64,000 nucleotides of DNA from IMG/VR virus record IMGVR_UViG_3300036406_000522, positions 1 through 64,000 of that record. One strand, 5' to 3'. The notes beneath the pieces are model-generated. The model was not told where the DNA came from and did no database searches. It was given only the letters and a program-made list of their open reading frames with translations. A program made the position numbers and the translations under genes. Position 1 is the stretch's first letter; every line of letters begins with the position of its first letter. Below, piece after piece: positions 5,057 through 55,055 of the stretch. The DNA is from a virus.

Positions 5057-5275
5057 ATGTCCATGTATATGGAAGAAGACGGTTGGCGCAACGAAGATGA
5101 CGAAGGGCCGTATTGCCCTGTGTTACGTACAAAAGGGCCGTGGACTATTATCAAATACATCAACGAAGCCCCTATCTATTTAAGAAAAAAGGGTGAGCCC
5201 GAAGAGCGTTCGTTTGCCTCGGTAACCGCTGCAAAGCTGTTTGTTTCGGAGGCCGAATGTCAATCGGTAGCTTGA
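5057..5275 (+). CDS. Unknown acidic phage protein
   Basis: 72 residues, strongly acidic N-terminus, behind a good GAGAGGAG ribosome site. No recognised domain. Its 3' end overlaps the GIY-YIG gene by 19 bases. Confidence 0.7.
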   Translation: MSMYMEEDGWRNEDDEGPYCPVLRTKGPWTIIKYINEAPIYLRKKGEPEERSFASVTAAKLFVSEAECQSVA

Positions 5276-17194: not shown

Positions 17195-17520
17195 GAAGTA
17201 GGACAACTCGTGGCTATCAAAAGTGGGCCGCTATGCCTCCAAAAATGGCGCGGTATAGGTGCGTGTAGGGGCGAACGTGGTTGCCTCGCGTGTGCCAAAC
17301 CTGTGCCACTTCTGGGCATTTCTGCACCGGAGTCTTGATTGACGGCGAAAGCCACGAGTTGCCGCAGGTAGATGGAAATGCGCATGGGCGGGTGACACTG
17401 TTAACTTAACCCAGAGACGTATGGAGTTGGTGGAACGCAATACCGTTGCTACTGCGGAGTCAGTGGTATCTTATATGGTACAACATCGTACTGTATTTAC
17501 ACAATGAAAAGGAAATAGAA
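17195..17520 (+). other. 326-bp intergenic region with GC-rich tract
   Basis: No gene supported. Bases about 17,215-17,395 are clearly richer in GC than the flanks and contain no plausible ribosome site; the rest is AT-richer and leads into the highly coded gene at 17,521. It holds a copy of the ACTGTTAACTTA sequence that recurs at two other intergenic positions. A promoter region is the most likely role. Confidence 0.6.
17397..17411 (+). promoter_or_regulatory. Repeated element, short copy (ACTGTTAACTTA)
   Basis: ACTGTTAACTTA followed by ACC, 110 bases upstream of the gene at 17,521. The same 12 bases open the long elements at 25,192 and 54,954, all in the same orientation and all in intergenic DNA upstream of a gene block. 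The second half of the long element is missing here. Promoter or protein-binding site is inferred. Confidence 0.5.
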
Positions 17521-21538: not shown

Positions 21539-21614
21539 GGCCCTTTAGCTCAATGGTTAGAGCAGAGGACTCATAATCCTTTGGTTGTCGGTTCGAGTCC
21601 AACAGGGGCCACCA
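21539..21614 (+). tRNA. tRNA-Ile2 (anticodon CAU, AUA-decoding)
   Basis: 76 nt including encoded CCA. The anticodon loop CTCATAA gives CAU. The acceptor arm (GGCCCTT with AGGGGCC, one G-U), D-arm and T-arm (GGTTCGAGTCC) closely match my memory of bacterial tRNA-Ile2 (E. coli ileX) rather than Met tRNAs, so C34 should be changed to lysidine by host TilS and read AUA. The elbow pair is the normal G19-C56. The phage uses AUA codons freely. Confidence 0.9.
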
Positions 21615-21631
21615 TTTAACTAGGAGTAGAA

Positions 21632-22195: not shown

Positions 22196-22202
22196 CATGT
22201 GA

Positions 22203-22287
22203 TCGAGGGTGGAGAAATTGCTAGACTCAGCGTTCTTAAACAGCGCCGCCGCAAGGCATGCGGGTTGGAACCCCGTCCCTCGAACCA
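22203..22287 (+). tRNA. tRNA-Leu (anticodon UAA) with inverted 19-56 pair
   Basis: 85 nt with encoded CCA. Acceptor TCGAGGG pairs with CCCTCGA (U1-A72), discriminator A73; D-stem GAG/CTC; anticodon loop CTTAAAC (UAA); class II variable arm GCC-GCAA-GGC; T-stem GCGGG with CCCGT. The D-loop reads G18-C19 and the T-loop TTGGAAC, so the normally near-universal G19-C56 tertiary pair is replaced by C19-G56 (22,221 and 22,267). Decodes UUA. Confidence 0.85.
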
Positions 22288-22295
22288 GGCACCAT

Positions 22296-22370
22296 TCCCC
22301 GTTAGCTCAGTGATAGAGCAATCGCCTTGTAAGCGATAGGTCGTCTGTTTGATCCAGACACGGGGAACCA
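22296..22370 (+). tRNA. tRNA-Thr (anticodon UGU) with A19-U56 pair
   Basis: 75 nt with encoded CCA, eight bases after tRNA-Leu. Acceptor TCCCCGT pairs with ACGGGGA (U1-A72); anticodon stem ATCGC/GCGAT with loop CTTGTAA (UGU); T-stem GTCTG/CAGAC. The D-loop has G18-A19 and the T-loop is TTTGATC, so position 56 is U: the elbow pair is A19-U56 (22,313 and 22,350). Decodes ACA. Confidence 0.88.
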
Positions 22371-25041: not shown

Positions 25042-25109
25042 GAGACCCTATTCGGTGCCTTCGGGTGCTGGATAGGGTCTCTCCCCTTTTTTTTTTTTTT
25101 TTTTTTTTT
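25042..25109 (+). terminator. Strong terminator with a 23-T tract
   Basis: GAGACCCTAT (25,042-25,051) pairs perfectly with ATAGGGTCTC (25,072-25,081); after TCCCC comes an uninterrupted run of 23 T (25,087-25,109). It closes the accessory gene block ahead of the packaging and head genes. The run is far longer than any terminator needs. Confidence 0.9.
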
Positions 25110-25191
25110 GTGCTCAGGTTACAAGACACTTGCATCGAACAAAGTCTATGAACCTTTTTCTGTAACGAGGGTACCGCAAATCAAGCGGGGA

Positions 25192-25230
25192 ACTGTTAAC
25201 TTATCCCCCATTCGCCTCCCCCCTTTATTA
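25192..25230 (+). promoter_or_regulatory. Long repeated element, copy 1
   Basis: ACTGTTAACTTATCC followed after a short spacer by TTCGCCTCCCCCCTTTATTA. The copy at 54,954-54,991 matches 35 of 39 positions. Both lie in intergenic DNA in the same orientation, about 100-390 bases before gene blocks. A promoter for a phage RNA polymerase is the leading idea; a binding or nicking site is the alternative. Confidence 0.6.
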
Positions 25231-25579: not shown

Positions 25580-26089
25580 ATGTCCGATATTCCGGAGAAA
25601 GTACCAGCTGGTCTGGCTCTGTCTGTGTCAATGGAAGAGCCACAACAACCAGCTTGGAAGGGTGGCAGCAAGAGTGGCAGTAGACACACAAAGCTTGCCT
25701 ATAGTAAGGAGAGTATTCGTAAGCTGGAGAAGATCGGGTTTGATCCCCTTCTAGAGATGGTGTCACTGTACAGGCGAGTGCGTAGCCAGATTGACAGGCA
25801 GGAGTTACTGCAAGAAGCACAAGACATCGCACGTGAGAATAAATTAGAGGGCCAGGTGAAGAACGGTTATTCTTCTATGGCGCTTGAAGGCTTTATGAAT
25901 ACCGCAAGCAAAGTGCTCTCCGACATGATACCTTACCGTTACGCTAAAGTGCCAGTGGAAGAGGCCGAGAAAGATGGAGCACCGCCACCGCTCATCATTG
26001 AGACAACTAAAGAAGGTGAGATGTTCATCATAGACCCATTGAACGAGTCTACGTATGCACAGGAGGAGGACTTCCGAAATGGCGATTAA
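25580..26089 (+). CDS. Terminase small subunit (probable)
   Basis: 169 residues from ATG 25,580. Position immediately before the large subunit (10-base overlap) and an N-terminal basic/polar region followed by a helical central part (LEKIGFDPLLEMVSLYRRVRSQ) are typical of phage small terminase proteins that bind the packaging site and stimulate the motor. No classical HTH is certain. The iteron array 235 bases upstream is a natural binding target. Confidence 0.7.
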   Translation: MSDIPEKVPAGLALSVSMEEPQQPAWKGGSKSGSRHTKLAYSKESIRKLEKIGFDPLLEMVSLYRRVRSQIDRQELLQEAQDIARENKLEGQVKNGYSSMALEGFMNTASKVLSDMIPYRYAKVPVEEAEKDGAPPPLIIETTKEGEMFIIDPLNESTYAQEEDFRNGD

Positions 26090-27413
26090 GCTGCATGCCA
26101 CACAATCATTAGTGTACGAGGACTTATTCGTCAGGAAGGTGTGCAGGCATGCTGTAGCAGTCGCTTGTCGAGGATGGGGTAAATCCCATAAGGCAGCTGT
26201 GGCATCTATCTCTGCTGTATGGGAGTTGATGTCATTGCCTAAGTGGGTGCCCAATAAGAATGTTGCAATCATTGCGCCTACATATTCACAGGTAACTGAC
26301 ATTTACTTCCCATTGCTGATGTATCAACTCGGTATGGAGAAGTATGTTGTTAAGCACAGCAAGCCTGATGGCCGATTGTGGTTTCCAGGTAATGTCGAAT
26401 TGAAGCTCATATCCTTTGAAGCAGTAGAACGCTTACGGGGTACTGGGCTTTACTTTGCTGTGAATGATGAGCCTTCTTCATGGACAAAAGGTATTGGCTT
26501 TAAAGATGCATGGGAGAGTGTTATCGAGCCTTGTATCTCTACACGCTGGTCACCTAAACGTGCTGCTATTTATAATGCCCCTAGCCCAGGACGATCACTG
26601 ACGATTGGTACACCTAAGGGATATAACTATCTCTATGACATGTACAATTTCCAAGAGGGTGACAAGCTATGGAAGTCCTATCACTTTGACTACACACAGT
26701 CACCACTACTAGACCCAGAGGAGGTCGAGCGTATTAGACATCGCGTCGATCCATTGTTCTTTAATCGCGAATACCTTGCATCATTCGAGGATTCAGGTAA
26801 TAGGATATTCTATTGCTTCAAGCGCAAAGAGCACGTGACTGACCAGATGGAGCCTTTGAAGGAGAACGAAGATGTACATGTCGCGTTGGACTTTAACGTT
26901 GGCATTATGGCTGCTAGCATATGGGTTGTACGAGGCAACAAGGCGTTTTGTTTGCGTGAGTTTAAGGGACATCCTGATACGCAAACGTTCTGCGACGTAC
27001 TACTAGAACTCTACAAAAAGAAAGGGCATCGTGTCATCATATATCCCGACCCTTCAGGTAACAGTCGCAAGACTTCTGCCCCTGTCGGAGTTACTGATTT
27101 CTCTATTCTGCGTAGCTGCGGTTTCACTGTACTAGCACATCAAGCTGCACCTAAGATTGTTGATAGTGTCAATGCTGTTAATAAGCACTTCAAGACTGCC
27201 GCTGGCGAGATCAATGCATATGTACATCCTTCGTGTAAGGGTGTTATTGACTCTCTAGAGAAGACAGTCTGGGTAGATAACAATCCTGATACTGCAACAA
27301 TTGATAAGTCAGAAGGTGTTGAACATTTCTCGGACGGTATACGTTACTTCTTTGAGTTCCGATTCCCTGTCCGCCCTGGTAATATTGTATCTGCGAGAGG
27401 ATTTGCATTTTGA
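26079..27413 (+). CDS. Terminase large subunit
   Basis: 444 residues from ATG 26,079. The ATPase has a variant Walker A RGWGKS (residues 31-36) and Walker B FAVNDEPSS with the catalytic Glu; the nuclease domain has VALDFNVG and a later YPDPSG acidic motif followed by a C-terminal Asp in HFSDGIRYF. It packages DNA into the prohead through the portal. Length is normal for the family. Confidence 0.93.
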   Translation: MAIKLHATQSLVYEDLFVRKVCRHAVAVACRGWGKSHKAAVASISAVWELMSLPKWVPNKNVAIIAPTYSQVTDIYFPLLMYQLGMEKYVVKHSKPDGRLWFPGNVELKLISFEAVERLRGTGLYFAVNDEPSSWTKGIGFKDAWESVIEPCISTRWSPKRAAIYNAPSPGRSLTIGTPKGYNYLYDMYNFQEGDKLWKSYHFDYTQSPLLDPEEVERIRHRVDPLFFNREYLASFEDSGNRIFYCFKRKEHVTDQMEPLKENEDVHVALDFNVGIMAASIWVVRGNKAFCLREFKGHPDTQTFCDVLLELYKKKGHRVIIYPDPSGNSRKTSAPVGVTDFSILRSCGFTVLAHQAAPKIVDSVNAVNKHFKTAAGEINAYVHPSCKGVIDSLEKTVWVDNNPDTATIDKSEGVEHFSDGIRYFFEFRFPVRPGNIVSARGFAF

Positions 27414-28163: not shown

Positions 28164-28562
28164 ATGAAAATTCAAGTAGACAAGCACGATGTAGCAGCTG
28201 TAGCTGATGATGTCAAGATTACTATGACACTGCAAACCACTGAGGGCGAAGTTACTGTCACCTCTCCTGATGCTGCAGCAGGCACACCTGAGATCGCTAC
28301 CGAAGAGATCAAGGCTGCCCAACAAGCTGAAGTACAGCGACAGGCCGAAGAAGCTGCTCATACCATGGCTCTACTCGCTGGTGCACCGCAACGTGTGATC
28401 GTTCCTCTTGTTGGTGTCAGCATGAACAGCCTCGAGATGATTCCAAGCAATTGGACAATCCTTCCAGCTGATGGCGACAACATCGAGGCATACAACAATG
28501 CCACAGGACGTCGTTTCGTTGGCACGCACGTGGACTTCAAACAGATTCTTCGAGGTAAATAA
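28164..28562 (+). CDS. Unknown protein upstream of the portal
   Basis: 132 residues, beginning ten bases after the previous stop. N-terminal strands, an Ala/Glu/Gln-rich helical middle (EEIKAAQQAEVQRQAEEAAH) and a compact C-terminal end. TAATG overlap with the portal gene suggests a virion-assembly role, not identified. Confidence 0.65.
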   Translation: MKIQVDKHDVAAVADDVKITMTLQTTEGEVTVTSPDAAAGTPEIATEEIKAAQQAEVQRQAEEAAHTMALLAGAPQRVIVPLVGVSMNSLEMIPSNWTILPADGDNIEAYNNATGRRFVGTHVDFKQILRGK

Positions 28563-30136
28563 TGTCGACCGTACCTACCGCCCAACCACTGAAAGGTGTA
28601 GGTGAGCCTTGCGCTGCATATGAGAGTGTTGAAGAGTTATGGGAACGTAGCAGGGCTGTTTGTGGCGGCGAGAGGTACGTTAAAGCTGCTGATAATTACC
28701 TGGACGTTTTGACTTACTCGAACATGCTCATCCCGTTCTCACCGAACATGACACCTGAGCAGTATGCCTTCTATAAGGCAGAAGCAGAGTTACCTGGTAT
28801 TGTTTCTCAGTTCTCGAAGTTCGTTGTAGGTGGATTGCTACGTAAGCAGCCACACCTGGAGATGCCTAAGGGTGCTCCAGAAGAGGCTAAGCAATGGATA
28901 CTCGATGACTTCGGTCAAGACTCTTCGCCACTCTCTGCGTTCCTTGATGTGGCACTTTGGGAAGAGATTCAGACGAGTCGTGCTTGGGTATATGTCGATT
29001 ACCCTAATGTTCCTAACGCTGATAACCTCACGAAGGAAGAACAACTCGCATACAAGCCTTACCCTATCTTGTGGAAGGCTGAGTCTGTCATCAATTGGAA
29101 GGTATCAACTGACGTCGTCAAAGGCACACAATCGCTCTCTATGGTGATTGTGAAGGGCTACGAAGAGGACTTCTCGAAGAACGAATTCCATGCTGAAATA
29201 CTTGACACTCTGTGGGTACATGAGATCGTAGAAGGAAAGTACCAGATACGTAAGTTCCAGCATCGTGTTCCGACACAGACTGAGACTACACAAGGACAGA
29301 CGAAGGTAGGCACAGGTCAGGGCAAGAAGTATGAGCTTGTCGAGACTATCGCTAATTTCCTTGTGGCAGGTAAGCCTCTGGACTTCATTCCAGCATGGCC
29401 TTTGAATGGCTCTATCGATGTCACCGAGCCTGTCATCATGGCGCTGGTTGATAAGGAAGTCAATCTGTACAACAAGCTTAGTCGTCGTAACCATCTGCTG
29501 TATGGTGCTGCTACGTATACACCTGTGTTGTCTACTAACGTTAGCGACGAGACGTTCCAAGCAATTGTTGACGGTGGACTAGGCTCCTGGATTCGCCTTA
29601 TGCAAGGTGATACAGCCTCGATCCTTGACACACCTACTGATGCTCTTAAGGACATGGAAGCCGCCATCGCATCCGGAATCGAAGAGATGGCACGTATGGG
29701 AATACGTATGTTGTCACCTGAGAATGTTCAATCAGGTGTAGCATTAGAGATTCGCAATGCTGCTCAGGCTGCTCAATTAGGGACGCTCAACACGAAGGTC
29801 TCTAATGTGATGGCTGATGTTATTTGCTTTATGGTGAACTGGCGTTATGGTACAGCGTTTAAGTCCAATGAATTCGACTTCTCGCTTAGCGCTGACTTCA
29901 ATCCTGCACCGCTTGGTGATGCATGGCTACGCCTCATTACTGAATGGTATAAGGAAGGCCTCATTCCGCGTACAACGTGGTTGGAAATCCTTAAGCACAA
30001 TGACATTATTCCGCCTGACTACAACGATGAAGACGCTAAGGTTGAGATTACAGCTGATGACTTCCTGATGCCAAAGGAGCCGAAACAAGGCACGACTAAA
30101 CCCTTGGAAGACGGCGTAATCGGTAAAGCAGAGTAA
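28562..30136 (+). CDS. Portal protein (DUF4055 type)
   Basis: 524 residues. The stretch TYSNMLIPFSPNMTPEQYAFYKAEAELPG, followed by SKFVVGGLLRKQP and later IRMLSPENVQSGVALEIRNAA, matches the phage portal family carrying DUF4055, a ring through which DNA enters and leaves the capsid. Size and location between terminase and MuF protein fit. Confidence 0.88.
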   Translation: MSTVPTAQPLKGVGEPCAAYESVEELWERSRAVCGGERYVKAADNYLDVLTYSNMLIPFSPNMTPEQYAFYKAEAELPGIVSQFSKFVVGGLLRKQPHLEMPKGAPEEAKQWILDDFGQDSSPLSAFLDVALWEEIQTSRAWVYVDYPNVPNADNLTKEEQLAYKPYPILWKAESVINWKVSTDVVKGTQSLSMVIVKGYEEDFSKNEFHAEILDTLWVHEIVEGKYQIRKFQHRVPTQTETTQGQTKVGTGQGKKYELVETIANFLVAGKPLDFIPAWPLNGSIDVTEPVIMALVDKEVNLYNKLSRRNHLLYGAATYTPVLSTNVSDETFQAIVDGGLGSWIRLMQGDTASILDTPTDALKDMEAAIASGIEEMARMGIRMLSPENVQSGVALEIRNAAQAAQLGTLNTKVSNVMADVICFMVNWRYGTAFKSNEFDFSLSADFNPAPLGDAWLRLITEWYKEGLIPRTTWLEILKHNDIIPPDYNDEDAKVEITADDFLMPKEPKQGTTKPLEDGVIGKAE

Positions 30137-30202: not shown

Positions 30203-33200
30203 ATGAGCACTAATGCCAACACAGCCATCTACGATAAGCTTGTAGATCGCGCTGCTATGTTACGTCTATATGAGGAGCGTGTTGCCGGTAAGGTTACCAC
30301 GATAATAGACGGGCACAAGGTTCGCATTATTGACATCATACTCGCTAACAAGGCGAAGATGACGCCTAAGATGCGGGAAGAGATAGACATACAGTTGCGC
30401 AAGACGTATGGTAACGCTTTCAATACAAGCTCTAAGTCGCTAATGGATTTGGTTAACGATCAGTTATCCTACACATACCAGAAGATGGATAATGTGGTGG
30501 GTAAGATCTGGCGTACAGCCAAGCCTAATTATCGCATCTCAGAAGACATTGTGCTTAAACGCCCATTGTATAATGATGTGACACTGATGGGTGGCTGGAC
30601 GAGTGTTAGCATTGCAGAGCGCAAACGTCTCGAATCACTTATACGACGTGGTATCGCAGAGGGGCTAGATGAAAAAGCAATCGCATTGTCTGTTAGGGAT
30701 GGTAATGTGTTCACCATATCTAAGCAGCAATCTATTGGCCTCGTCCGTACTGCTATTACGTCTGTTCGTTCACAAACAGATCATGAGGTGTACAAGGCAA
30801 ATGAAAAGATTCTCACTGGCTGGCAGTATGTCGCTGTTCTGGACTCTCGTACGACGCCACTCTGTCAGCATCGTGACGGTACTGTGTATCCTATCAGTGA
30901 TACTGCACATCTTCCTCCTGCTCACTGGTACTGCCGAAGTACTACCATCCCAATAACCAAGTCGTATGACCAGCTTGGTGAACTCGAGGGTGTAGCACAG
31001 ATACGTAAACGTAACTTGGAAGGGTTGACGCAGAAACAGATCGCCTTCTATGATGGACAAACTCCGTTAAAGGAGAGTTACAGCGAATGGTTACAGAGGC
31101 AGCCTACTGATGTTCAGCTAAGGCATCTTGGTGATAATACTCGACTAGAGTTATTTCGTAGTGGTCAACTAACCGTAGACAAGTTTACAACACCTGCTGG
31201 TAATTCTGTCGGCATCAATGAGCTACGTAGAATGACAGATGATGGCTACGGTATTGGTAATACGAAGAAATTCGCCATTGCTAAAGAGCAGCTAGACCGT
31301 CTTAAGCTAGGCGCAGCTAGGCCTGAAGAGCTAATAGACTCTCCTGATATGGTGGCTGCATTACGCAACTACTATATGCTGCAAGCCAAAGACCTTGATG
31401 GTAATCTGTCATTGACAAACTACCGAGGCAATCTGCTGCACACAAAGAAGGCTACTAAGGCGCGTGTATTGAACAGCCCTCCTACAGAGGAACAGTTATT
31501 GTTCAATCCATTAACAGGACGTTATGATGACAGCAGGATATTTCAACCGAATCAGGCTGTCTTAAAGAATAACCTCAGGTTAGTCGAAGACTCTGTTAGC
31601 TTAAAGAGAGCTGACAAGGATTTTATCAAGAAGTTTGTGGATGATCTAGATGGACATCTAGGTGCTAACGAACGAGCTGTTATAACTGACAACCTACGTA
31701 TCGTGTTCACACGCTTCCGTGATAATAAGGAGCCATGGACGAATCTTAAGGCCGTTCTCAATGGTCAGATCAAGTTCGACATAATGAACGTTTCTGATTA
31801 CATCGAGACACAGCTACGTCGTGACCAGAATTTCCTTCTCAAGCTGAAACAAGACATGTACATCGATCCTGTCCTAGGGCCGGTGCAGCTACAAGACCTG
31901 CATGATAACTTCATAGCTAACATCAGGGCAAAGAACAAGTGGGAGGATAGTGTAGCACCGAAGATCGCAAGAGAACTGCGCAACATCTTCGACTACAAGA
32001 TTCCTTACAAGATCAGAACACGATTGAAAGAAGATGGAGACCATCAGTTAGACCAGTTCTACCTACGATTTGCCAATAGATTAGCAATGGCAGATAGCCC
32101 TGATAGAGACCAACTCGCTGTTGCGCTAGGTCGTGATTTATACAATGCAGCAAACTATCGAGGCAATAGGAAAGAATGGTGGCTCCTTGGTAACAAATTA
32201 CTGGACAACGCTAAGGCTAAGGGTTTCTACGAGCTTGAAACGCGTGGTGTCCAAAAGAGACGAATGCGAAGCCGCAATTTTGGGAAGTATTTCGGTCCTG
32301 CTTACGATACTAATTCTGTTGTGGTCGTCGTTCATGATCCTCGTATTCTTGAATACGCAAAGCTAACTCGTAAGGTTGATGTAGGTCTGCGTGTGAGCGC
32401 AACTACAGAGCACAACAGGTTGCGAATCAGAGAGGGTTACAAGACGTACTTCACAGATGAAGGACTATTCGGGTACTACGATACTCGCATCCCTATAATC
32501 TCTGAGTCGTCATTCAAGGACTTCCCTGAGAAGCTAATCGACAAGGACATGACGTCTGCACTAAATTGGGCAGCTCAAACGAAATACAAGGTTGATCCTG
32601 ACTTTCACGACTTCATTGACAAGTTACTTCACTTTACTGACGACAAGGGACGGGCTAAGTACTACAGCGAGGTGAATCACTATCGCGAGTATATGAGTGG
32701 CCGTGGAGACGCGTATGAGAGATTCAAAGCAATGTCATGGCTTAGGGCTAAGGATAGTTCTTTTAGCAATCATCCTTTTCTCGACCATCGTGCACGTATC
32801 TATGAGAGAGGCTTCATCGGCCCACAGGCGGGTGAAAGCTTTAGGCCGTTCCTTAATAGTGCTGTATCGAAAAAGTTTAATGAGCAAGGATACCTGAACC
32901 TTCAGGACCAGATTGGTGGCTTTATTGGTGGCCTCTCTGATAATCTAGAAGGAAAGTACAACGCACTGTCTGTACTAGGTAGGCAAGAGATAGCTAAGAA
33001 ACATAGACCAGAAATGGTCAAGATAGGTTATCACATGCTACGTGGTAAGCCTGCTGACATCCGCGCTGTCCTGGATTCGAAGTTCGTCCAAGAGATAGAT
33101 GGCGAGGATTTAGGTAAGGCACTGCGTCTGTCGCTCGAAATGGCTAAGATAGATCGCTTCCTAGATGGTGACTACTCTGATCTGTCAAAGCTCAAGGGTT

Positions 33201-34837
33201 ACGATATTGCAGTCGCATTAGAGCAAGATGCCAGTTCTTCTGGTGCGCAGATCATCGCGTTAACTACGAAGAATAAGCAGCTTGCTGAATTGTCTAATGT
33301 ACTCGCAACGAATCAGAAGAAGCGGTTGTATGACGAAATCGCTGCACTTACTTTCAACGATCCTCGATTCATTAAGTTGAACCAGAAGCTTGGTTTGACT
33401 GAGAAGGATCTTCGGAAGGCAAGTAAGGCACAAAACATGGTCACATTCTATGGTGCAGGTCAACGCACTGGTGCTATGAATGTGGAAACAAAGCTGGCCA
33501 AGGCATTGGGAAAGAATGAAGGTCTGCTCGTTGTGAAAGCATCTGAGCGTGACAAAGTACTCGATGAGATCGCTGCTAGAGCGGCGCGCTTTGAGAGATT
33601 CGATCCTGACACTGCATCTGAGCTAAAGGCTTTGAGACAAGATGTCAAGGATATCTTCAACCGAGGTGTAGATCCTGGTGATGACCTCTTAGAGGACTTA
33701 TGGTTCCTAGAACCGAAGACCTACGAGTTCGTCGAGAAGCTATCTCGATCATACGATAAAGTTGTAACACCTAATGATTTCAAGCTTATTGCTGAGATCA
33801 TGAGCGAAAATCTTGCTGTACAGGTTCCTATTCTTAAGGACTTCACACGTTACTTTGGTAGACTAGCTGAGGACTTCCTCACTAGTGCCAAGCCGAATGA
33901 AGCGTCCTTCGACGAAGCTAAGATCCTGCGGCAGATGCTTTTCGGTGCTTACAAGGCTGGCGACAAACTACCACCGCGTGTGGCAGAGTTGTTGGGTACA
34001 AAAGCCAGTGAATCAATCAGCGAGAAATTCCTTAAGCGTGTCCCTTGGTATAAACCAGGAGACTTACTATCTGAAGTCATTTACGGTGTTAAAGCTCCAT
34101 TGGACAGACGTACTGGCACTACACTTGGAAAGGTAAAGTTCAAGTTAGGTGCGATCGAAGAGACACTCTACGGAGGCTTCGATGTACTGTATCCGAACAA
34201 GATGCCGAAACAATGGACGAACATCCCTTGGGTTAATTTTGATGGCAAGGTTATTGAACAGAATTTCACACAGGCGTTCGAAGAGCGATTAGTGTATCGT
34301 GATGCAAATGGTGATTGGGTGACCAACATCCTCATGATCAAACAGAAGACTGACCCTACGTGGTGGGAAGAGTTCAGAAACAAAACAGACACCATGAGGG
34401 ACATTGCTGATGTAAACAAAGCTAGAACAGCCTTTGCCGTTAACGGAAACCATGCTAATGACGCCACACTTGTGAAGCAGTATCATCTATGGGGACGTAA
34501 GAACAACATACCTACTGCTACGGTGCATGACGCGTTCATGGCCAACGCTGCCGATCTATTGAAGTCAAGGGATGCACTTAGGGAAATCTATGCGAATGTT
34601 CTGGATAAGAACGTTATCCTAGACACACTTAACGAAATGCGTGATAGAGGCTTGTCTAAGGAACTCTATGACAAGTATCTGAACGAAGCTATTGACATTG
34701 GATTGATACCTATCGCTGGTCGATCTGTTGTCGGTGGTAAGAAGTTACAAGAGAGTGATATTCTGAAGAAGAGCGATGTCTTAGTAAAGATAACGCACGA
34801 CTTCAAGGGTAATCATTACTGGTACGGAATTGGATAA
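30203..34837 (+). CDS. MuF-type head protein fused to a single-subunit RNA polymerase (candidate virion RNAP)
   Basis: 1544 residues from ATG 30,203, chosen because AGAGGAG lies directly upstream. Residues about 160-252 are MuF-like: DSRTTPLCQHRDG (Cys221) and PPAHWYCR (Cys244), normally a minor capsid protein. The C-terminal part has every active-site motif of T7/N4-type RNA polymerases: DHRARIY (Asp861, Arg865), motif A QDASSSGAQ (Asp1009), motif B with Arg1071, Lys1075, Met1079, Tyr1083, Gly1084 at exact T7 spacing (R627, K631, M635, Y639, G640), NGNHANDA (cf. T7 NFVHSQDGSH), and motif C VHDAF (His1442, Asp1443). The longer B-C interval recalls N4 virion RNAP. Expected to be packaged in the head and ejected with DNA to start early transcription; the reading of motifs is direct, the virion role inferred. 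Confidence 0.9.
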   Translation: MSTNANTAIYDKLVDRAAMLRLYEERVAGKVTTIIDGHKVRIIDIILANKAKMTPKMREEIDIQLRKTYGNAFNTSSKSLMDLVNDQLSYTYQKMDNVVGKIWRTAKPNYRISEDIVLKRPLYNDVTLMGGWTSVSIAERKRLESLIRRGIAEGLDEKAIALSVRDGNVFTISKQQSIGLVRTAITSVRSQTDHEVYKANEKILTGWQYVAVLDSRTTPLCQHRDGTVYPISDTAHLPPAHWYCRSTTIPITKSYDQLGELEGVAQIRKRNLEGLTQKQIAFYDGQTPLKESYSEWLQRQPTDVQLRHLGDNTRLELFRSGQLTVDKFTTPAGNSVGINELRRMTDDGYGIGNTKKFAIAKEQLDRLKLGAARPEELIDSPDMVAALRNYYMLQAKDLDGNLSLTNYRGNLLHTKKATKARVLNSPPTEEQLLFNPLTGRYDDSRIFQPNQAVLKNNLRLVEDSVSLKRADKDFIKKFVDDLDGHLGANERAVITDNLRIVFTRFRDNKEPWTNLKAVLNGQIKFDIMNVSDYIETQLRRDQNFLLKLKQDMYIDPVLGPVQLQDLHDNFIANIRAKNKWEDSVAPKIARELRNIFDYKIPYKIRTRLKEDGDHQLDQFYLRFANRLAMADSPDRDQLAVALGRDLYNAANYRGNRKEWWLLGNKLLDNAKAKGFYELETRGVQKRRMRSRNFGKYFGPAYDTNSVVVVVHDPRILEYAKLTRKVDVGLRVSATTEHNRLRIREGYKTYFTDEGLFGYYDTRIPIISESSFKDFPEKLIDKDMTSALNWAAQTKYKVDPDFHDFIDKLLHFTDDKGRAKYYSEVNHYREYMSGRGDAYERFKAMSWLRAKDSSFSNHPFLDHRARIYERGFIGPQAGESFRPFLNSAVSKKFNEQGYLNLQDQIGGFIGGLSDNLEGKYNALSVLGRQEIAKKHRPEMVKIGYHMLRGKPADIRAVLDSKFVQEIDGEDLGKALRLSLEMAKIDRFLDGDYSDLSKLKGYDIAVALEQDASSSGAQIIALTTKNKQLAELSNVLATNQKKRLYDEIAALTFNDPRFIKLNQKLGLTEKDLRKASKAQNMVTFYGAGQRTGAMNVETKLAKALGKNEGLLVVKASERDKVLDEIAARAARFERFDPDTASELKALRQDVKDIFNRGVDPGDDLLEDLWFLEPKTYEFVEKLSRSYDKVVTPNDFKLIAEIMSENLAVQVPILKDFTRYFGRLAEDFLTSAKPNEASFDEAKILRQMLFGAYKAGDKLPPRVAELLGTKASESISEKFLKRVPWYKPGDLLSEVIYGVKAPLDRRTGTTLGKVKFKLGAIEETLYGGFDVLYPNKMPKQWTNIPWVNFDGKVIEQNFTQAFEERLVYRDANGDWVTNILMIKQKTDPTWWEEFRNKTDTMRDIADVNKARTAFAVNGNHANDATLVKQYHLWGRKNNIPTATVHDAFMANAADLLKSRDALREIYANVLDKNVILDTLNEMRDRGLSKELYDKYLNEAIDIGLIPIAGRSVVGGKKLQESDILKKSDVLVKITHDFKGNHYWYGIG

Positions 34838-34876
34838 TGAGTTGTACTCATTAACATTTTAAATGGGCTGTGCCCA
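34835..34876 (+). terminator. Twin 3-nt-loop hairpins after the RNA polymerase gene
   Basis: TAATGAGT-TGT-ACTCATTA (34,835-34,853), whose first bases are the stop codon, is followed by ACATTTT; then TGGGC-TGT-GCCCA at 34,864-34,876 just before the ribosome site of the scaffold gene. The first could be an inefficient terminator. The same loop TGT in both is curious; see findings. Confidence 0.5.
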
Positions 34877-34890
34877 GGAGCTTTGAAATC

Positions 34891-35610
34891 ATGGCAATAA
34901 ATCCGAATAAAGAAGATGGCACTCCTAAGACTACCGAAGAGATTGCGCTGGAACAAGCGGAATTGGATCGGCTGGAAGCTCTTAAGGGTGAGACAGAAGA
35001 ACAGAAGATCGCTCGTCTAGTTCAAGAGGGAATCGAAGCTCAGATCAAGGGCCTCAAAGATAACCTCAACAAGGCTTACGAAATCCGAGACGCTGCTGAG
35101 AAGAAGCTCAAGGAGAAAGAAGCCGCTGAACGTGAAGCTGAAATCAAGCGACTTGAGGCCGAAGGTAAACACCGTGAGGTCTACGAGGCTCGTCTTGCCG
35201 ATGCTGAAGTGAAGCGCAAGGAACTGGATGCAAAGAATGCAGAATTGGAACGTCGCAATACTGAGCTTACTCGGGATGCGAATGTGCGTGCAGCACTACA
35301 AGGACTGGATTTCAAGAACGATCGCGCAGCTGAGATGGCTTTTAAGGAAATCGCTGAAGGTCTTGTTCGCAACGATAAGGGCGAATGGGTACACAAGAGC
35401 GGTGTCACTATCAAAGACTTCATTGCTGCATATGTTGCTGATGACAATCAATCTTTCTTGTTCAAAACAAAAGCTAGCTCTGGCGGAGGTTCCGGTTCGG
35501 GACAAGGCAAGGGTGGGAATGATGGTGGCTCTGGCGACACATCGCTATTCGCCAAATCACAAGACGAAGTGATCCGAATGGCTGCTGAAGGCAGACTGCC
35601 GCAACGATAA
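34891..35610 (+). CDS. Capsid scaffold protein (probable)
   Basis: 239 residues from ATG 34,891 after CCAGGAG. Highly charged Glu/Lys/Ala coiled coil over residues about 15-135, then a Gly/Ser-rich linker (SSGGGSGSGQGKGGNDGG) and a short helical end. This composition and its place just before the major capsid gene are typical of tailed-phage scaffold proteins that guide prohead assembly and leave or are degraded. Confidence 0.85.
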   Translation: MAINPNKEDGTPKTTEEIALEQAELDRLEALKGETEEQKIARLVQEGIEAQIKGLKDNLNKAYEIRDAAEKKLKEKEAAEREAEIKRLEAEGKHREVYEARLADAEVKRKELDAKNAELERRNTELTRDANVRAALQGLDFKNDRAAEMAFKEIAEGLVRNDKGEWVHKSGVTIKDFIAAYVADDNQSFLFKTKASSGGGSGSGQGKGGNDGGSGDTSLFAKSQDEVIRMAAEGRLPQR

Positions 35611-35628: not shown

Positions 35629-36828
35629 ATGAGTGCAACTAAGAGTGTAACTGGCGCAACTGATACCGTTCTGCAATCGGCTATTGGTGCGTACTACGAT
35701 GAAGCTTATACGAACGCGAAGAAGCTGGTCAACACCGGCATCACCGTGGCGAATTCGCAAATCGATACTGAAACTGAGACCTTCATCGGTCAACTGCGTT
35801 GGGAAAAGCCGCTTACCCCGACCATTAACCTGGCCTCGCTTACTGACAGTACTGCTGGTACAGCGACGACCTCCGACACTGAATTCCTGACATACATCAA
35901 GTCTGTCCGGACTGCAGGTGCTGAGAAGGTCAACATGAAGCAAGTTGTTACTCAGAAAGATGGTCTGGCCAAGTTCGGTCGTGACTTCGCTGAGACGCGT
36001 GCTCAAGACGAGCATAACGCCATTCTTGCAGTCTGCAAGGGTGTCGCTATTGCTGAGTTGCTGAACGGTGCTGGCAAGGCCCAAGGCTCTAACGGTCTGG
36101 GTGGACAGACGTTTGACAACGACCCGACCGACAAGAAGTATGGTTTCTACGTCGATCTGGGCAACGTGCTGCCGGTCATTGCTGCTTCGGCTACTGCTCA
36201 AGGTGCTGCCCGCGCTGAGGGCTTCCTGACTGCCATGGGTATGGCTTGGAAGGATTACGAGCCGTCGTATGCTTATCTGGTCGTCAGCCCCGCTGTCATG
36301 GCCTCGCTCCGTTCTGCCAATCTGGTGGATCAGGATAAGGTCAGCGAAGCTGGCATCGAGTTCAACACGATCTTCCAGGGTAAGTTCCGTCTTATCTTGA
36401 CTCGTGCTACTCAGAGCATGGCATCTGCCGAGTTCACCAAGATGAACACTGGTCCTGGCGTTGATGTGGTCGGTACCAAGACGAGCTTCATCGTTCTTCC
36501 TGGCGCGATCAACTTCAATGCACTGAACGTGCCTGATCCCGTCGAAATCCAGCGCAATGCTGCTGCCTATAAGGGTGGTGGTTCTACTGCGATTTGGCAT
36601 CGTTGGGGTTACATCGCTCATCCGGTCGGTTACAAGTGGGCTGGTAGCGAGAACGTGTTTGCTGACGACGCTGCTTACAAGGCTGTTATCGAGAACGCTG
36701 TTCAAGTGGCGCTTACTGCCGCTACTGATGGCCTGGTCACTGGCACCCCTGCCTATGTTCAGTCCGTGTGGCAGCGCAAGTACAGTTCCGCGCTGAGCCT
36801 GGGCATTCTCCCGGTATTCCACGCCTAA
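35629..36828 (+). CDS. Major capsid protein
   Basis: 399 residues, right after the scaffold. HK97-fold major capsid is inferred from position, size and composition. Codons are strongly biased to GC-ending forms, the mark of the most abundant virion protein in this genome. Ribosome site AAGGAA. A long antisense open frame across this gene is a by-product of that codon bias. Confidence 0.88.
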   Translation: MSATKSVTGATDTVLQSAIGAYYDEAYTNAKKLVNTGITVANSQIDTETETFIGQLRWEKPLTPTINLASLTDSTAGTATTSDTEFLTYIKSVRTAGAEKVNMKQVVTQKDGLAKFGRDFAETRAQDEHNAILAVCKGVAIAELLNGAGKAQGSNGLGGQTFDNDPTDKKYGFYVDLGNVLPVIAASATAQGAARAEGFLTAMGMAWKDYEPSYAYLVVSPAVMASLRSANLVDQDKVSEAGIEFNTIFQGKFRLILTRATQSMASAEFTKMNTGPGVDVVGTKTSFIVLPGAINFNALNVPDPVEIQRNAAAYKGGGSTAIWHRWGYIAHPVGYKWAGSENVFADDAAYKAVIENAVQVALTAATDGLVTGTPAYVQSVWQRKYSSALSLGILPVFHA

Positions 36829-40063: not shown

Positions 40064-43000
40064 ATGGCAATTGAACTAGAAGTAAAAACTAATGCCGCCA
40101 AAGCCGAAAGTGACATACAGAGATTAGTCACGGCTGTTACAGGAATCGGTACTGCCTCTGACAAGACAACTGAGAAACTTGAGGCTATCACCAAGGCCAC
40201 TGATAAGGTAGGCTCAGGGGCTAATACGGCCAAGCTTGGCAGGTTGTCTGATTCGGTAAAGGATATCGGTAAGTCAGCCAACAGCATGTCAGATAGCTTG
40301 ATGCGAGCTACACGCTCTATTGGCGAATTCGCGGCTATCGCAGTAGCAACTGTTGGTGTAGCAGCATTGTCCGACAAGGTAGCCACACTGAATGCTAAGC
40401 TCCGTCTCGTGGAGAAAAGCACAGGCGCGCAGGCTGAACGATTCAAAGAGATAACCGCTGTGGCTATGGATGCAAGCATAGCGATCACTGATGTGGCTGA
40501 TTTGTATGTCAAACTGCGGCGTGCCTCTGAGAACTTCGGCGCATCTAGCAAGGACGCACTGCAAGTGACAGCTAACGTTGCTCGCATCATAAAGTCCTCC
40601 GGCGTAGAAGCTGCGCAAGCCTCTGCTGGTATTCTGCAGCTTGGTCAAGCGTTAAGCTCTGGCAGACTGCAGGGTGACGAACTTCGGTCTATCCTCGAGA
40701 ACATACCTGAATTGGCTACAGTGATTGCCAAGAGTATGAACGTATCAATCGGCCAACTACGGCTGATGGGTGAGGAAGGTACACTATCAGCGAATCGTGT
40801 GTTCGCAGGTATTCTGTCACAAACGGACGAGATCAACAAGAACATGAGTCGATTCGTTACCATAGGTGGCTCTCTGAAGAACCTTGGTAATGCATTCACA
40901 GTGATTATGCAGGCTGTCTTGCAGCTGTTCGGTGGATCGAATCCTATCGCCATATTCATTGATAAGCTAGCGGTGTCCATCACAGGATTCGCTACTCGCT
41001 TCATCACAGACATGGCCTACCTGAAGGTTAAGGCTATCGTAGCGCTGATGCCATTATTGGTGTTCTTTTCTGATCTACCTGATACGGCAGGTGCCGCATT
41101 CCAGAAGATTGCTAAGATGTTGGGGGACATGCTGAGCTTCGACATGAAGTTCACATTCGGTGGTTTCGAGGCGTCTGCTAAACAGGTCATCAGCACAGTA
41201 CAACGAATTGAAGCTGCCTTCGCCTGGCTGTATGACAGAGTCATTGGCAACTCGTGGATCCCTGATTTGGTAGAGGGTGTCATCAGCTGGATAGGTAAGA
41301 TGACCACTGCAGTGAAACCCTTGCTGGTCACATTCACATCGATGTTCGAGACGGTGTTCACTGATGCAGCTAAGTACTGGAAGCAGGTCTTAGGTATTGC
41401 TGATAAGCCTGCCGCATCTACGACATCTAAGGCTCGTACCCAAACTGCAGACGAGGCGTGGGCAGCTGAGTGGTTGAAACCAACACCGAAAGCTCTACCT
41501 GAGCCGACTGATGCCAACTACAAAGCACCTTCCACGAACCCCTGGAGTGACTTCTCCAAGCAGGAGGTCAAAGACTGGCAGGATCAATGGCTGAAACCAC
41601 TTATCTATCCAGATGAGAAAACTACAGCTCCTAATAAGAGTGATACAGGTTTCACAGAGGCAGAAATAGAAGCTTGGCGTAAGGAATGGCTGGCCCCTAT
41701 TATCTATCCAGAAACTAATGTCGAGATACTCGACGAAAGTGTCAAGCAGGTTAAGATTTTGAAGGATATAAAGGAGGCTGTAAAGGAGCCGCCTAAAGTT
41801 GAAATGCCTGGTTTCGACACCGTAGAATATCTCAACAACCTCCAGAAGAACTCTAAAGGTACATTCCCCGAGTTCAGGAAGAATCACCTAGGTGACGGTG
41901 CTAAGGCTAAGCCATTTGATTTGCTCGGTTCTATGAACAAGAGTGCTAGCACTGAAATCGGCAAGGCGCTGTCTACAGGGATAGCATCTAAGGGTCTGGT
42001 AGCCAGTAATATAGAAGCCGCCGAAGAAAGTTATGTGGAGAGGCTTCTCAGCTTTGTTAATGGACTCGGTCGCTCTGTTGCGTCTCACACTAGCGACGCC
42101 CTCTCTACTATCGGTGACATGTACAACGATTTCATCTCGTTTGTGCCTAGATTCTTCAAGTCATTAGGCCGTATCATCGCTAAACAGTCGGATGTAGCTA
42201 GTGGCCTAAACTGGTTACAAAGCACTGATCGTGGCAAGTTAGTACGGCAGATCGTAGGTATCCCTGACGATAAAGGCGGCGCGCAAGTCCCATTCGGTCC
42301 TCACAAACAAGAAGTCGATAGACCGTTCATGCATGACATCATAAATGCGTTCGACAACAAAGATCAGGTGGTTGCCACTTTAGCTATTGGTGCAACGCTG
42401 ACTGCTATCTTAGGCGCGATGCTTTTGATACCTACTGTTATCTTCTCATCGATGGCCCCCATGCGTGGCTTCCTACTTAAAGCTGCTGCTGTGAGTGGTG
42501 TAGGGCTGACCGGCACGATGTTGGCGAAGAACGTCGATGAAGGGACGCTCGTCAACGCACTCGTTAAAGGCATTCGCACTACGTTGGATATTGGCAGGTC
42601 GATCAAAGAAGCAATCTTTGGTAGTGGCGCTTTCGGTCCAATATCAACGTACCTAGAGACTGCTGACAGCATGGGTGACAAGCTTATAGCCGTCGTGAAG
42701 GGTATCGCTGAGTTTACACTTAAGCTGGCAGCTCTGGCGTTCTTGTTTTCCTCGGACAATAGAAAGGCCGCTGGCGGTGCTCTTGTCGATGTCATTACTT
42801 CGCCAACTGCGATGGGAAAATCGGTCGGTAAACAACTTGAGCTGAGCTATCTTAACAAGCAAGTTAAGGACGCTACCAAGACATTCGACAGATCGACGGC
42901 AGTGGTGGCACTGAATACGAAGCGGTTAAGTGAACAGGCACAGGTACAGAAGCTAGTCAATGACTTGCCCATCTCTAGGCTATCCACTGCTAATGACGCG

Positions 43001-46000
43001 CAACGCGCTGTAGCTCCTATCCAGAAGGAATTGTTGTCGCTTAACAAGACCATCAAAGAGGGCGCTGCATTCTCGCAACGCCAAGTTACAAACGCTACGT
43101 CGCAAGTGGCAATGCTTGGCCCACAGATACAACAGCTTTCAGCTACACGTGACACACTGCGTAAGAGCATTAGTGATGCTTCCACTCAGTTCAAGGATGG
43201 TCTGAAGAACTCGTTAGCAAGCGCAGGTGGCTTCTTAGGTGGCTACGCAGGCTTCACAGCTGGTTCTGAGTTTGCACGACAGTCTGACTTACCTGAGCAT
43301 CAGAAGATAGCTGTCACAATCGGTGCTGGCATTTTAGGTCAGCTCACTGGTGCTACAGCGGTATCTGCCTTCACCTTGTTGTTCGGTGCGGTTCTCGGTG
43401 CTGTGTTCACGCCTATAGGCGCAATCATCACTGCAGCTTTGATCGCGGGTTGGTTGTTCTTCAAAGAGCCTGAGACCTGGAACACACTTAAGTTCATTGT
43501 TACTGATGAGATCCCTAAGGCAATAAAAGAAGGCCTCGATCTTGGTGCTAAGGCGCTGACAGATTATCTGAAGAAAGAGTTCCCGTGGCTAATGGGTGAC
43601 AGTCCTGATGTTGAACCGACGACACCTGGACAGCATGCTGCCTCAGCCGCAATGGGTATCGGTGCAACTGCCGTATCGATAGCGCAAGGTGACTTCGAGC
43701 AAGCTGAACGTATGGGCAAGCAAGTAGGTGTCCATGTGGAGAAGGCCATCCTAGGCACAATGGGTTTGGAGAAACCGCTGCTGGTAGAGATGCTGCCTGA
43801 TGGTGGACGCGACTTTAAGCTGCTACCTGATGCTACTGCTGCTAGAATGGAAAAAGGATTCCTAGATTGGAGTATGTCTGTCGGAAAGAGTATAACAAAT
43901 TTCTTCGACACAACCAAGAACATTCTCCTGCAGCGTGGTGAGCAACAAGATGGTGAAGCTGAACCGTATCCTTATACAGCCTTCTCAGGTGGTGGTAAGG
44001 TTCGTGGTCCAGGAACGGGGACATCTGACAGTATCAACGCTAAGGTGTCCAACGGTGAATTCGTCGTTAAGGCCGCAGCTGCTAAGGACAACATGCAGTT
44101 GCTCGAGGCTATCAACAATGGTGTCTCACCTGCAATAGTTGCTGCCATGCAACAAGATGTCGCCACTAAAGCAGGACTGGTCGGCTATCAACTTAAGTAT
44201 GTAGATGCTGTTGCAGCGCGTACTGATCCAGCAAGTAAAACACTTAATGTCCCCGCTATCACTCCAGAGAACGGATACGGCGAGTACTACGTGTCATTGC
44301 ATGAGATTGGACATATCCATTCTGATAATGCTTTCTTGGAAACGGTACGTAGCGACATATTGCCGTTACGTATGCAACTTGAAGAGCACTCTGCGAGGGC
44401 CTTGAAGCGTTACAGAGAAGTCGGCGAGCCTTACTTGCGCAGTAACGAGTATAAGGAAGCGAACGCAATAGGTTCTGCATTGAACCAGCAGTATATGGCT
44501 CGTTTCGCCAATTACCAGGACATGTTTGATTCACGTTTTCTGTTTGAGGCACAAGCATCTAAGTGGGCTTTCGAGAATGCGGCTATTAAGAGTCCGGCGG
44601 GTGAAGCGACCTTAGCCATAGCAGCGCGCTCATACCTTGCAAGGAGCATGCTAAACGATCACGATGCGTTGACCAGAGCGAGAGGCCTCATAGATATAGC
44701 TGATGATGCTAAGATCAATAACTCCTCTGGTGCATTGACGTTTCAAGACCTAACTGGTAAGTTCAGTACGACGAACTTTGATCTACTGAAAGGCTTCGCT
44801 AAGTTCGACAAGAGCAAGATGATTGCCCCTGCCGTTGATATCGCAGAAAGCCAGACAGGTAGACGTGACGATCTAGAGACGACCTTGAATTACTTCATGA
44901 CGAACAAGGCAAGAGGTATTCCAGGTTTCTCTACAGGAGGATCTGTATTCGGACTTGGCTCCGCGACGTCTGATAGTATCCCTGCGATGCTGTCAAACGG
45001 TGAGTTTGTCGTAAACGCCAAGGCTGCTGCACAATTCAGACCGTTCTTAGAGGCGCTTAACGGTGGTGTGCCTGGATTCAATCTAGGAGGCTTCATAAAG
45101 AAGTACAAGCCACAAGCAGAACGTATATCTACTTCGTTGGGCATCGATTCTGACCTTTTGTTGAAGCAGTTGTACTATGAGAGCCAGGGCGGTACATCTA
45201 ATGTTGCGAAGCTGAATAACAACTTCGGTGGGATTACATATACTGAGGGCAATCCGAACGGCTCTAAAGGCTCTCCACGCCCTGCCAGTGAAGGCGGCAA
45301 CTACGTTAAGTATGCAACCATTGACGATTTCTTTAAGGACTTCGAACGTGTAATGTCCAGCAAGAGATACGATGGTGCGCGTGGTAGGAAGGACTTAGGC
45401 GAGTACGCCACGGCTGTACAAAAAGGTGGTTACGCCACAGATGCAAACTACTCTAAGAATATGGTGAGTGTTATATCGAAGGCGGAGGGCGCTATCGTCG
45501 GTCAATCTGTTGCCACTGCAGATCAAACTGTTGAGACAGAAAAATCCACATCAGTACTTGCGGATTTCAAGGCTGCGATGATGAAAGGCGTTGAAGGCAT
45601 CAATGCATGGATCAAGGCTAACACAGGTGTCGATATTAGCAAAATGATCCGTGACATGGTAGCTGGAAACCCTACAGGTATCGAGAAGATAGGCGACTTT
45701 GAAGGTGTTGCGAAGTACATCAATGCATCTGGTGCACTGGCCAATCCAGTAACAATTGCTGATGTCACCAAGCTGGTACAAGCTGGTCAACTGACGACTG
45801 TCGGAAAGGCCCTTGATGAGATAGCACTTAATACGAAGTCACTAGGTGCCACTAATCTGTCTGAAATATCCAGAGCCAAGCTTGTGAACAACATAAGCGG
45901 GCAACAAGGTGCTGTAGCTGAGATTTTCAAGAACCTTACGCCTGAAGTTAAGAAAGAGATGGACTACAAAGGCGCTCTGGGTGACTTCTTTCCTGGCAAG

Positions 46001-54881: not shown

Positions 54882-55055
54882 GCGGACAGGCCTATATACG
54901 CAAAATAAGGGTACAAGAATAATGTACCTGCGTCTCTCTGGTCAGTACGTGATACTGTTAACTTATCCTACTTCGCCGCCCCCCTTTATTAACAATAAGG
55001 ATGCGCTAGTGATTAGTGTATCTTTACTAACTGAGAAAGAAAGAAATGAGGGATC
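54882..55055 (+). other. 174-bp intergenic region before the fibre genes
   Basis: Contains a GGTAC/GTACC hairpin (about 54,910-54,930) and the second long copy of the repeated element (54,954-54,991). No gene. Confidence 0.6.
54954..54991 (+). promoter_or_regulatory. Long repeated element, copy 2
   Basis: ACTGTTAACTTATCC, then TTCGCCGCCCCCCTTTATTA. Matches the copy at 25,192-25,230 with three substitutions and one one-base gap; 65 bases before the fibre gene block. Confidence 0.6.

Follow-up and report, generated by a model that had tools for sequence, protein, structure and literature searches.

Why would a phage gene lodged between the portal and scaffolding genes encode, in one frame, a head protein domain and an RNA polymerase (RNAP)? 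The question is posed by a fusion gene in a 64,000-nucleotide (nt) stretch of IMG/VR virus record IMGVR_UViG_3300036406_000522 (the window; positions 1 to 64,000 of a 67,865-bp record without end repeats). An earlier note on this DNA had proposed that a MuF head domain carries an RNAP as its effector into the virion for transcription of early genes, and had likened the enzyme in part to that of phage N4. The first part of this proposal was strengthened by the domains, conservation and predicted fold of the protein, by its place in a late head operon and by two RNAPs and two promoter-like motifs in this phage group; the likeness to N4 was not upheld. In the reading that we consider probable from comparison of these sequences, the fusion is a virion RNAP that is made late, packaged by way of its MuF half and delivered with the DNA, and that transcribes early genes from one promoter-like motif (class B), after which a second phage RNAP uses another (class A).

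A MuF domain and RNAP motifs in one reading frame

Judged by its domains and motifs, a single frame of 1544 amino acids (aa) unites a MuF head domain and a complete T7-type single-subunit RNAP. The frame was found at the extent that the earlier note had given (Table 1); an alternative in-frame GTG start at 30146 would lengthen the product to 1563 aa. In an hmmscan search against Pfam, the frame matched RNA_pol (PF00940; E 1.9e-9; 37.3 bits, cut-off 22) in addition to Phage_Mu_F, and nothing besides these two at E <= 0.1. The MuF assignment, likewise made before, was corroborated by a match of PHROG 241 (head morphogenesis) to aa 1 to 345 (E 1e-60), while PHROG 414 (RNA polymerase) matched the last part of the protein (E 1.5e-15 and 7.5e-10).

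In a joint alignment with T7 RNAP, all the catalytic residues named in the earlier note were present and lined up: D861, R863, R865, D1009, R1071, K1075, M1079, Y1083, G1084 and H1442-D1443. Their T7 equivalents are D421-R425 (DxRxR), D537 (motif A), R627-G640 (motif B) and H811-D812 (motif C). The fusion has D-x-R-x-R, DASSSGAQ and NGNHxND...HDAF where T7 has DWRGR, DGSCSGIQ and NFVHSQD...HDSF, so that the proposed N..H..D segment also has its T7 counterpart. Four N4-type enzymes in the same alignment have TRVGR or similar and D-G-x-x-N-G, and no aligned His-Asp. The residues common to the fusion and T7 may be ancestral.

Predicted fold and place among single-subunit RNAPs

An AlphaFold2 model of aa 345 to 1544, built from a 44-row alignment, reached a predicted local distance difference test score (pLDDT) of 84.5 and a predicted TM-score (pTM) of 0.81. 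In this model the RNAP part has a right-hand polymerase fold, as had been anticipated, and lies nearer T7 than N4. With VIA-align 2, model residues 217 to 1200 superposed on T7 RNAP (8dh5_E) with Z 27.3 and a root mean square deviation of 3.3 over 523 residues, at ∼15% identity in the structural alignment. Scores for mitochondrial RNAPs were up to Z 24 (POLRMT, Z 23.4), and those for N4 were Z 16.9 (mini-vRNAP) and Z 11.9 (full gp50). The top PDB matches in Foldseek were human mitochondrial RNAP (E 1.5e-18) and T7 RNAP (E 9.9e-18), with TM-scores of only 0.36 to 0.40 by query length. The long interval between motifs B and C had been read as pointing toward N4; together with the T7-like motifs and fold, it is better described as an insertion in a T7-like scaffold.

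At the level of sequence the relationship is distant. A single-protein search of PDB sequences returned no RNAP (best match, an unrelated NUS1 chain, E 0.085), and a family-profile search matched T7 RNAP weakly (E 0.0017). In a quick tree of 28 rows, the MuF-RNAPs, the second phage RNAPs described below and the N4 virion RNAPs formed separate groups, with support of 99, 95 and 100, respectively, in the SH-like approximate likelihood ratio test (SH-aLRT). Joining of the MuF-RNAPs with N4 had a support of 26, and their joining with the second RNAPs was not rejected (approximately unbiased test, p-AU 0.753).

Conservation and distribution of the fusion

Seventy uninterrupted full-length copies of the fusion were extracted, including that of the window and its 100% copies; 53 were distinct at <99% identity. 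D861, R863, R865, D1009, K1072, K1075, M1079, Y1083, G1084, H1442 and D1443 were invariant in 70/70 copies, as were residues C221, H241 and C244 of the MuF domain. Position 1071 was R in 68 of the 70 and Q in the other 2, and is A in phage DSS3_VP1. Ratios of nonsynonymous to synonymous substitution (dN/dS) of the RNAP part were 0.02 to 0.08 in 16 listed pairs, which are not independent and in some cases share sequences. By these measures purifying selection acts on the fusion, and conserved motifs together with low dN/dS argue that it is neither a chance product nor a decaying gene.

An IMG/VR query by alignment gave 278 relatives at E <= 1e-3, which may include MuF-only proteins; the best 80 of them were 52 to 100% identical to the query. 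Among 50,697 phage records searched with tblastn, the RNAP half was present in four only: EBPR siphovirus 1, DSS3_PM1 and two DSS3_VP1 entries, where the homologues, full length in DSS3_VP1, DSS3_PM1 (Naomviridae) and EBPR siphovirus 1, are annotated as head, minor head or hypothetical proteins. The DSS3 homologue is 29% identical, and in DSS3_VP1, a phage of the laboratory strain Ruegeria pomeroyi DSS-3, the gene for this minor head protein, QGH74596.1, likewise sits between portal and scaffold. In EBPR siphovirus 1 (JF412302.1, gp47 to gp49, L037:20046-25419) the fusion appears as two genes (head and hypothetical) separated by a gene for an HNH endonuclease; gp47 and gp49 are probably one gene with an insert. 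The word "polymerase" is absent from the main text of the paper on this phage (PMC3097231). A scan of GTDB genomes found only two loci, both from one Gammaproteobacteria metagenome-assembled genome, which is a weak lead to the host.

In several relatives the fusion gene is interrupted. Group I introns break it in L016, L019, L022, L025, L026, L028, L029, L031, L032, L034 and L036, many of them at or beside catalytic codons (near aa 880, 1010, 1073 to 1085, 1418 and 1442). Rfam identified 24 group I introns in the 12 loci searched, five of them within the gene of L029, and in L025, L026 and L032 a 72-nt exon encoding motif B is flanked by two introns. Separately, in-frame inserts of ∼105 to 235 aa occur in the RNAP part of L330, L331 and L332 (G058, G063 and G071), near aa 988 to 997 and 1104 to 1109. 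An identity of these inserts as inteins was considered and dropped: above the cut-off, the tested parts had no match to an intein or to anything else in Pfam, and the PHROGs that they matched are all of unknown function.

A second, T7-like RNAP in the same phages

The earlier account was incomplete in one respect, as it missed a second RNAP encoded just outside the window. A second single-subunit RNAP of ∼750 aa accompanied the fusion in 17 of the 19 relatives whose records were scanned for RNA_pol, DSS3_VP1 included (its enzyme is homologous at 30 to 35% identity); the two records without it are partial, one of 40 kb and one of 54 kb. In the record of the window, the fusion was the only RNAP found. 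Contig G019, however, matches the window without a difference along 13,562 bp and extends 2,205 bp further left. On this extension, ∼1.3 kb outside the left end of the window, an open frame encodes the C-terminal 316 aa of the second RNAP (PHROG 414, E 1.5e-48). G019 is the only one of 13 records searched in which the second RNAP was seen, the remaining 12 being 12 to 38 kb long. Given the identity between G019 and the window, the phage of the window almost surely encodes this second RNAP.

The second RNAP appeared as separate matches in G005, G009, G010, G013 and G014; in G009 the match stops at residue 513 of the DSS3 query and resumes at residue 514 after ∼720 nt, and this gene may carry introns too. 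A single-strand binding protein adjoining the second RNAP had been suspected from an acidic end of the product, which matched neither Pfam nor PHROG families, and it is not claimed.

Two promoter-like motif families

Over-represented 12-mers were the starting point for two families of promoter-like motifs. Class A (CCCGTTAAATTAACCC) stands before late blocks in relatives; its consensus, gAaCCCGTTAAATTAACCCt, was built from 35 sites in seven genomes, and the matrix derived from these seven of the nine relatives was then used for scanning. Class A sites lie upstream of the gene for the terminase large subunit (TerL) in 9/9 relatives (in G011 at only 11.1 bits), directly after the fusion gene and before the scaffold gene in 7/9, and shortly after the second RNAP gene in 6/9. 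The window carries ACTGTTAACTTA at 17397, 25192 and 54954, of which only the first exceeds the matrix threshold.

Class B (GCGSAAAAnnnGGTATCTTATATGA) has the consensus (T/C)GCG(G/C)AAA(A/T)Ann GGTATCTTATATGA, and the stretch in front of it is rich in A. Its matrix was made from 69 sites of contigs outside an 11-genome set, which was then scanned at a threshold of 15 bits. All 31 matches at or above the threshold, found in 10 of the 11 genomes, were confined to the + (coding) strand, and 24 of them lay outside any + frame of at least 60 aa with an ATG start. In the nine relatives with a second RNAP, 19 of 29 class B sites were located at most 7 kb upstream of that gene, compared to 2.8 expected; the 7-kb cut-off was set after inspection, and G009 was handled as circular. 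No class B site fell between TerL and the end of the fusion gene in any of the nine. The remaining sites were mostly grouped in another cluster, which in several genomes precedes a conserved ∼190-aa gene; this gene follows class B in the window (17521 onwards) and in G001, G002, G006, G009 and G011. An ATG-initiated frame began within 200 nt after 84 of 89 class B sites, mostly at 17 to 57 nt. The phage of the window has two sites, one of them beyond the window and 18 bases after a terminator-like stem.

Class B was also used as a probe. The exact pattern was found in 89 stretches of IMG/VR. Among the 80 listed, all 42 contigs of at least 30 kb outside G001 to G018 were examined, and the RNAP half of the fusion was present in 29 of the 42 (21 of 22 contigs of at least 60 kb and 8 of 20 shorter ones). 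The lone exception of at least 60 kb (65,873 bp) ends inside the fusion gene and carries the second RNAP; counting this truncated copy, the gene is present in 22 of 22 contigs of that length. Class B thus belongs to the fusion-bearing phage group; because this group also has the second RNAP, the probe alone is silent on which enzyme reads it.

Hairpins of the kind that N4 uses were looked for at class B. The commonest position of a 5-bp hairpin was common to only 9 of 92 sites, and a stem with at least two G/C pairs inside the motif occurred in 0 of 82. An inverted repeat (TAGGAATAATCCTA) was seen in G007 and was absent from the others. Unlike N4 early promoters, class B therefore has no hairpin at a fixed place, a comparison that presumes class B to be the promoter of the fusion. 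The earlier note had suggested an assay on single-stranded phage DNA; with a T7-like enzyme and a contiguous candidate early promoter of ∼25 bp that has no shared hairpin, a single-stranded or hairpin template is no longer the best guess.

A proposed order of transcription and its alternatives

In the proposed cycle, the fusion would be synthesized late, as part of the head operon, and its MuF half would bring it to the portal during head assembly, like SPP1 gp7; by this route one or a few copies would be packaged. At infection it would pass down the long tail together with the DNA and transcribe early genes from class B, among them the gene for the second T7-like RNAP. From class A, the second RNAP would then transcribe the middle and late operons and so renew the supply of MuF-RNAP. 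Since the fusion is apparently made late and the gene of the second RNAP, the sole other phage RNAP observed, stands behind class B, class B should be read by an enzyme that is present earlier, which leaves the host RNAP or a virion-borne RNAP; with two RNAPs and two promoters so arranged, the simplest reading is an early RNAP that arrives in the virion. It is from the MuF fusion, the place of the gene and the early motifs that we infer presence in the virion and delivery, and packaging, ejection, enzymatic activity and the pairing of enzymes with motifs are put forward in the same sense.

Early transcription by the host RNAP, with the fusion (packaged or not) serving another step such as late transcription in the producing cell or DNA entry, appears unlikely to us. 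T7-type phages do have their early genes transcribed by the host RNAP, the fusion would be produced together with late genes, and the A-rich stretches upstream of class B could be UP-like. Class B, however, is contiguous over ∼25 bp and, judged by spacing, matches no sigma type known to us, and a scan for sigma-70-type sites found none overlapping either class B site of the window's phage. Moreover, an enzyme that acted solely in the producing cell would have no use for fusion to a head protein, and the second RNAP is already a fit for late transcription. We regard a reversal of the pairing, in which the fusion reads class A and the second RNAP class B, as far less credible still. The proposed pairing is indeed an indirect one for both enzymes, and class A stands right before the scaffold and major head genes in 7/9 relatives; yet an injected enzyme would then begin at the head genes, and the promoters of the second RNAP would precede its own gene. 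In addition, DSS3_VP1, with its homologous second RNAP, has ATAGGGTGCGTTAAAGAGGGG repeats that end in a G run and have CGTTAAA in common with class A. The most improbable of the three alternatives is a loss of catalysis, with the RNAP part retained in the head as a structural or DNA-binding relic. The modest Pfam score of 37 bits, the variability of R1071 and the insertions in some relatives would suit such a relic, against which stand the catalytic residues invariant across all full-length copies, the low dN/dS and the group I introns at catalytic-motif codons, as such introns usually sit at conserved functional sites.

Several observations nevertheless weigh against the proposed role of the fusion as early polymerase. 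Class A sites also occur upstream of the early block in 7/9 relatives, so that the second RNAP may transcribe this block too, and the host RNAP may read class B. Five of 55 Markov surrogates attained 15 bits, which makes the weakest class B matches (15.8 and 18.0) unsure. DSS3_VP1 has the fusion, yet its matrix scan gave no class B match of at least 15 bits, and when an early motif was sought there through 18-mer repeats upstream of the second RNAP, none was recognized among the first 80 listed. A terminator-like stem overlaps the class B site in the window, and the first gene after the other site encodes a SleB-like cell wall hydrolase (PF07486, L040:12468-12865), which is not a typical early gene; PF07486 was present in 5 of 11 records searched. 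Stems of six base pairs overlapped class B more often than expected (20 of 92 sites versus 5.3) and at varying positions, and local structure may have some role. As class B is common to one phage family, its co-occurrence with the fusion can reflect common descent, and no phage with the second RNAP was surely without the fusion (3 of 8 records have it; the other five are fragments of 4 to 42 kb). Finally, AlphaFold modelled the first 600 residues with moderate confidence (pLDDT 75.5), and this model had no PDB fold match at E <= 0.001.

Genomic context

Gene order places the fusion in a late head-gene operon consisting of TerL, portal, MuF-RNAP, scaffold and major capsid protein (Table 1). Matches to a tape measure protein and a distal tail protein downstream are compatible with a long tail.

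Table 1 Features of the window and of the fusion gene
Feature	Position	Strand	Evidence or remark
Class A promoter-like site (candidate for second RNAP)	17397..17412	+	ACTGTTAACTTAACCC
Class B promoter-like site (candidate early, MuF-RNAP)	17454..17478	+	23.4 bits
Class A-like site	25192..25207	+	Upstream of TerL (operon of the fusion); exact 12-mer repeat, below matrix threshold
TerL	26055..27413	+	PF03237 E 7.8e-5; PHROG 2 E 3.9e-29
Portal protein	28562..30136	+	Directly upstream of fusion; PHROG 145 E 1.5e-52
MuF-RNAP fusion gene	30203..34837	+	ATG start, 1544 aa; full-length homologues exist
MuF (Phage_Mu_F) domain	30629..30949	+	aa 143-249; PF04233 E 2.4e-13, 51.2 bits, cut-off 29.6
Modelled RNAP region	31235..34834	+	aa 345-1544; T7-like fold ∼aa 561-1544
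DxRxR	32783..32797	+	aa 861-865; alignment with T7
Motif A, DASSSGAQ	33227..33250	+	aa 1009-1016; alignment with T7
Motif B	33413..33454	+	aa 1071-1084; alignment with T7
Probable promoter-specificity loop	34283..34357	+	∼aa 1361-1385; T7 alignment only, boundaries inferred
Motif C His-Asp	34526..34531	+	aa 1442-1443; alignment with T7
Head scaffolding protein	34870..35610	+	Directly downstream of fusion; PHROG 206 E 1.4e-14
Major head protein	35629..36828	+	PHROG 247 E 4.9e-19
Tape measure protein	40064..47329	+	2421 aa; PF20155 (TMP_3) E 6.6e-45, glucosaminidase PF01832 E 8.9e-17
Distal tail protein match	47390-48004		
Class A-like site	54954..54969	+	Exact 12-mer repeat; below matrix threshold
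Second class B site of the window's phage	67421 of the 67,865-bp record (L040:12421)		Beyond the window; 36.3 bits

Elsewhere in the window, three tRNA genes (Met, cat; Leu, taa; Thr, tgt) lie at 21539-22370 together with an HNH endonuclease frame at 21632, and a free-standing GIY-YIG homing endonuclease (SegE-type) is encoded at 5257-5832. A run of more than 20 T (25087-25111) occupies the gap upstream of TerL, and G009 has comparable long T runs at its start and near 26.6 kb. Between 62182 and 63999, seven copies of a 38-nt unit with the core ATGCGGATTGATxCxAGTGGxAATGT are spaced 204 to 267 nt apart, past a long frame that ends at 61877; they are possibly fiber-like repeats.

Implications and comparison with known systems

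On balance we think it likely, as one joint claim, that the fusion adds a third architecture to those of virion RNAPs: a T7-type enzyme on a portal-binding MuF protein, passing as a 1544-residue chain through a siphovirus tail, with contiguous early promoters of its own and an origin apart from N4 gp50 and P23-45 gp96, and widespread in freshwater- and wastewater-type metagenomes as well as in marine roseophages. If so, there would be at least one more route for an RNAP into the phage particle, with MuF as carrier and an ordinary T7-type enzyme as cargo, and the "minor head protein" of the cultured roseophages DSS3_VP1 and DSS3_PM1 would become a candidate virion RNAP. Candidate promoters are also at hand for both phage RNAPs of an uncultured group. 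Orthogonal single-subunit RNAPs with new promoters are, in addition, of use as tools. The passage of a chain of ∼175 kDa (estimated from its length) through a long tail is a question that this reading raises.

T7 RNAP (Autographiviridae) resembles the fusion in fold, in catalytic motifs and in the use of a contiguous, duplex-type promoter motif, for which class B is the candidate here. It differs in being synthesized in the infected cell, and it is not known to be fused to a head protein.

The strategy of carrying an RNAP in the virion is itself known, and no account of MuF joined to a T7-type RNAP was found in the open-licence PMC literature, which was covered mostly at the level of titles and abstracts. 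Known MuF fusions, the polymorphic toxins and effectors, likewise have an N-terminal MuF domain and an enzymatic C-terminal part and are encoded in head-gene clusters, but the partners named in the accessible text of these accounts are toxins, nucleases, ADP-ribosyltransferase (ART), RelA/SpoT and the like (PMC5576092, PMC5512222). Here, no C-terminal toxin domain was seen by Pfam or fold, and the C-terminal part is predicted to be an RNAP. The carrier itself has a precedent in SPP1 gp7, a MuF protein which, as summarized there, binds the portal and is present in few copies per capsid (PMC5576092).

N4 gp50 and its relatives in the Schitoviridae share with the fusion the single-subunit polymerase superfamily and, as proposed here, a role in early expression that precedes that of a second phage RNAP. 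N4 gp50 is a giant podovirus protein of ∼3,500 aa with a C-terminal encapsidation part and hairpin promoters (PMC4496689, PMC5512222), and N4-like virion RNAPs are described as confined to N4-like phages (PMC5512222). The fusion, in contrast, has 1544 aa, begins with MuF and ends with the RNAP domain, without a C-terminal encapsidation or metallopeptidase region by Pfam; it has the T7-type DxRxR, DASSSG and HD motifs that N4 is missing, and it lacks the N4 signature T-x-x-G-R.

The closest parallel in strategy is the Thermus siphophage P23-45, whose gp96, a virion RNAP fused to the tape measure protein, has been shown by experiment (PMC10770324). The earlier note, whose author knew of no characterized siphovirus system of this kind, overlooked this precedent. 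In both cases a long-tailed phage has a virion RNAP as a domain of a structural protein (its virion location being predicted here); in P23-45, as is proposed here, a second, non-virion RNAP comes from a pre-early gene, and two unlike promoter motifs mark the targets of the two enzymes (PMC10770324). Its discussion also mentions virion RNAP fusions in crAss-like phages (PMC10770324). In the window, a gene of its own encodes the tape measure protein, for which TMP_3 and glucosaminidase were the sole matches. P23-45 thus tethers a two-barrel, cellular-type RNAP to its tape measure protein, whereas the phage described here would tether a right-hand, T7-type RNAP to a MuF head protein.

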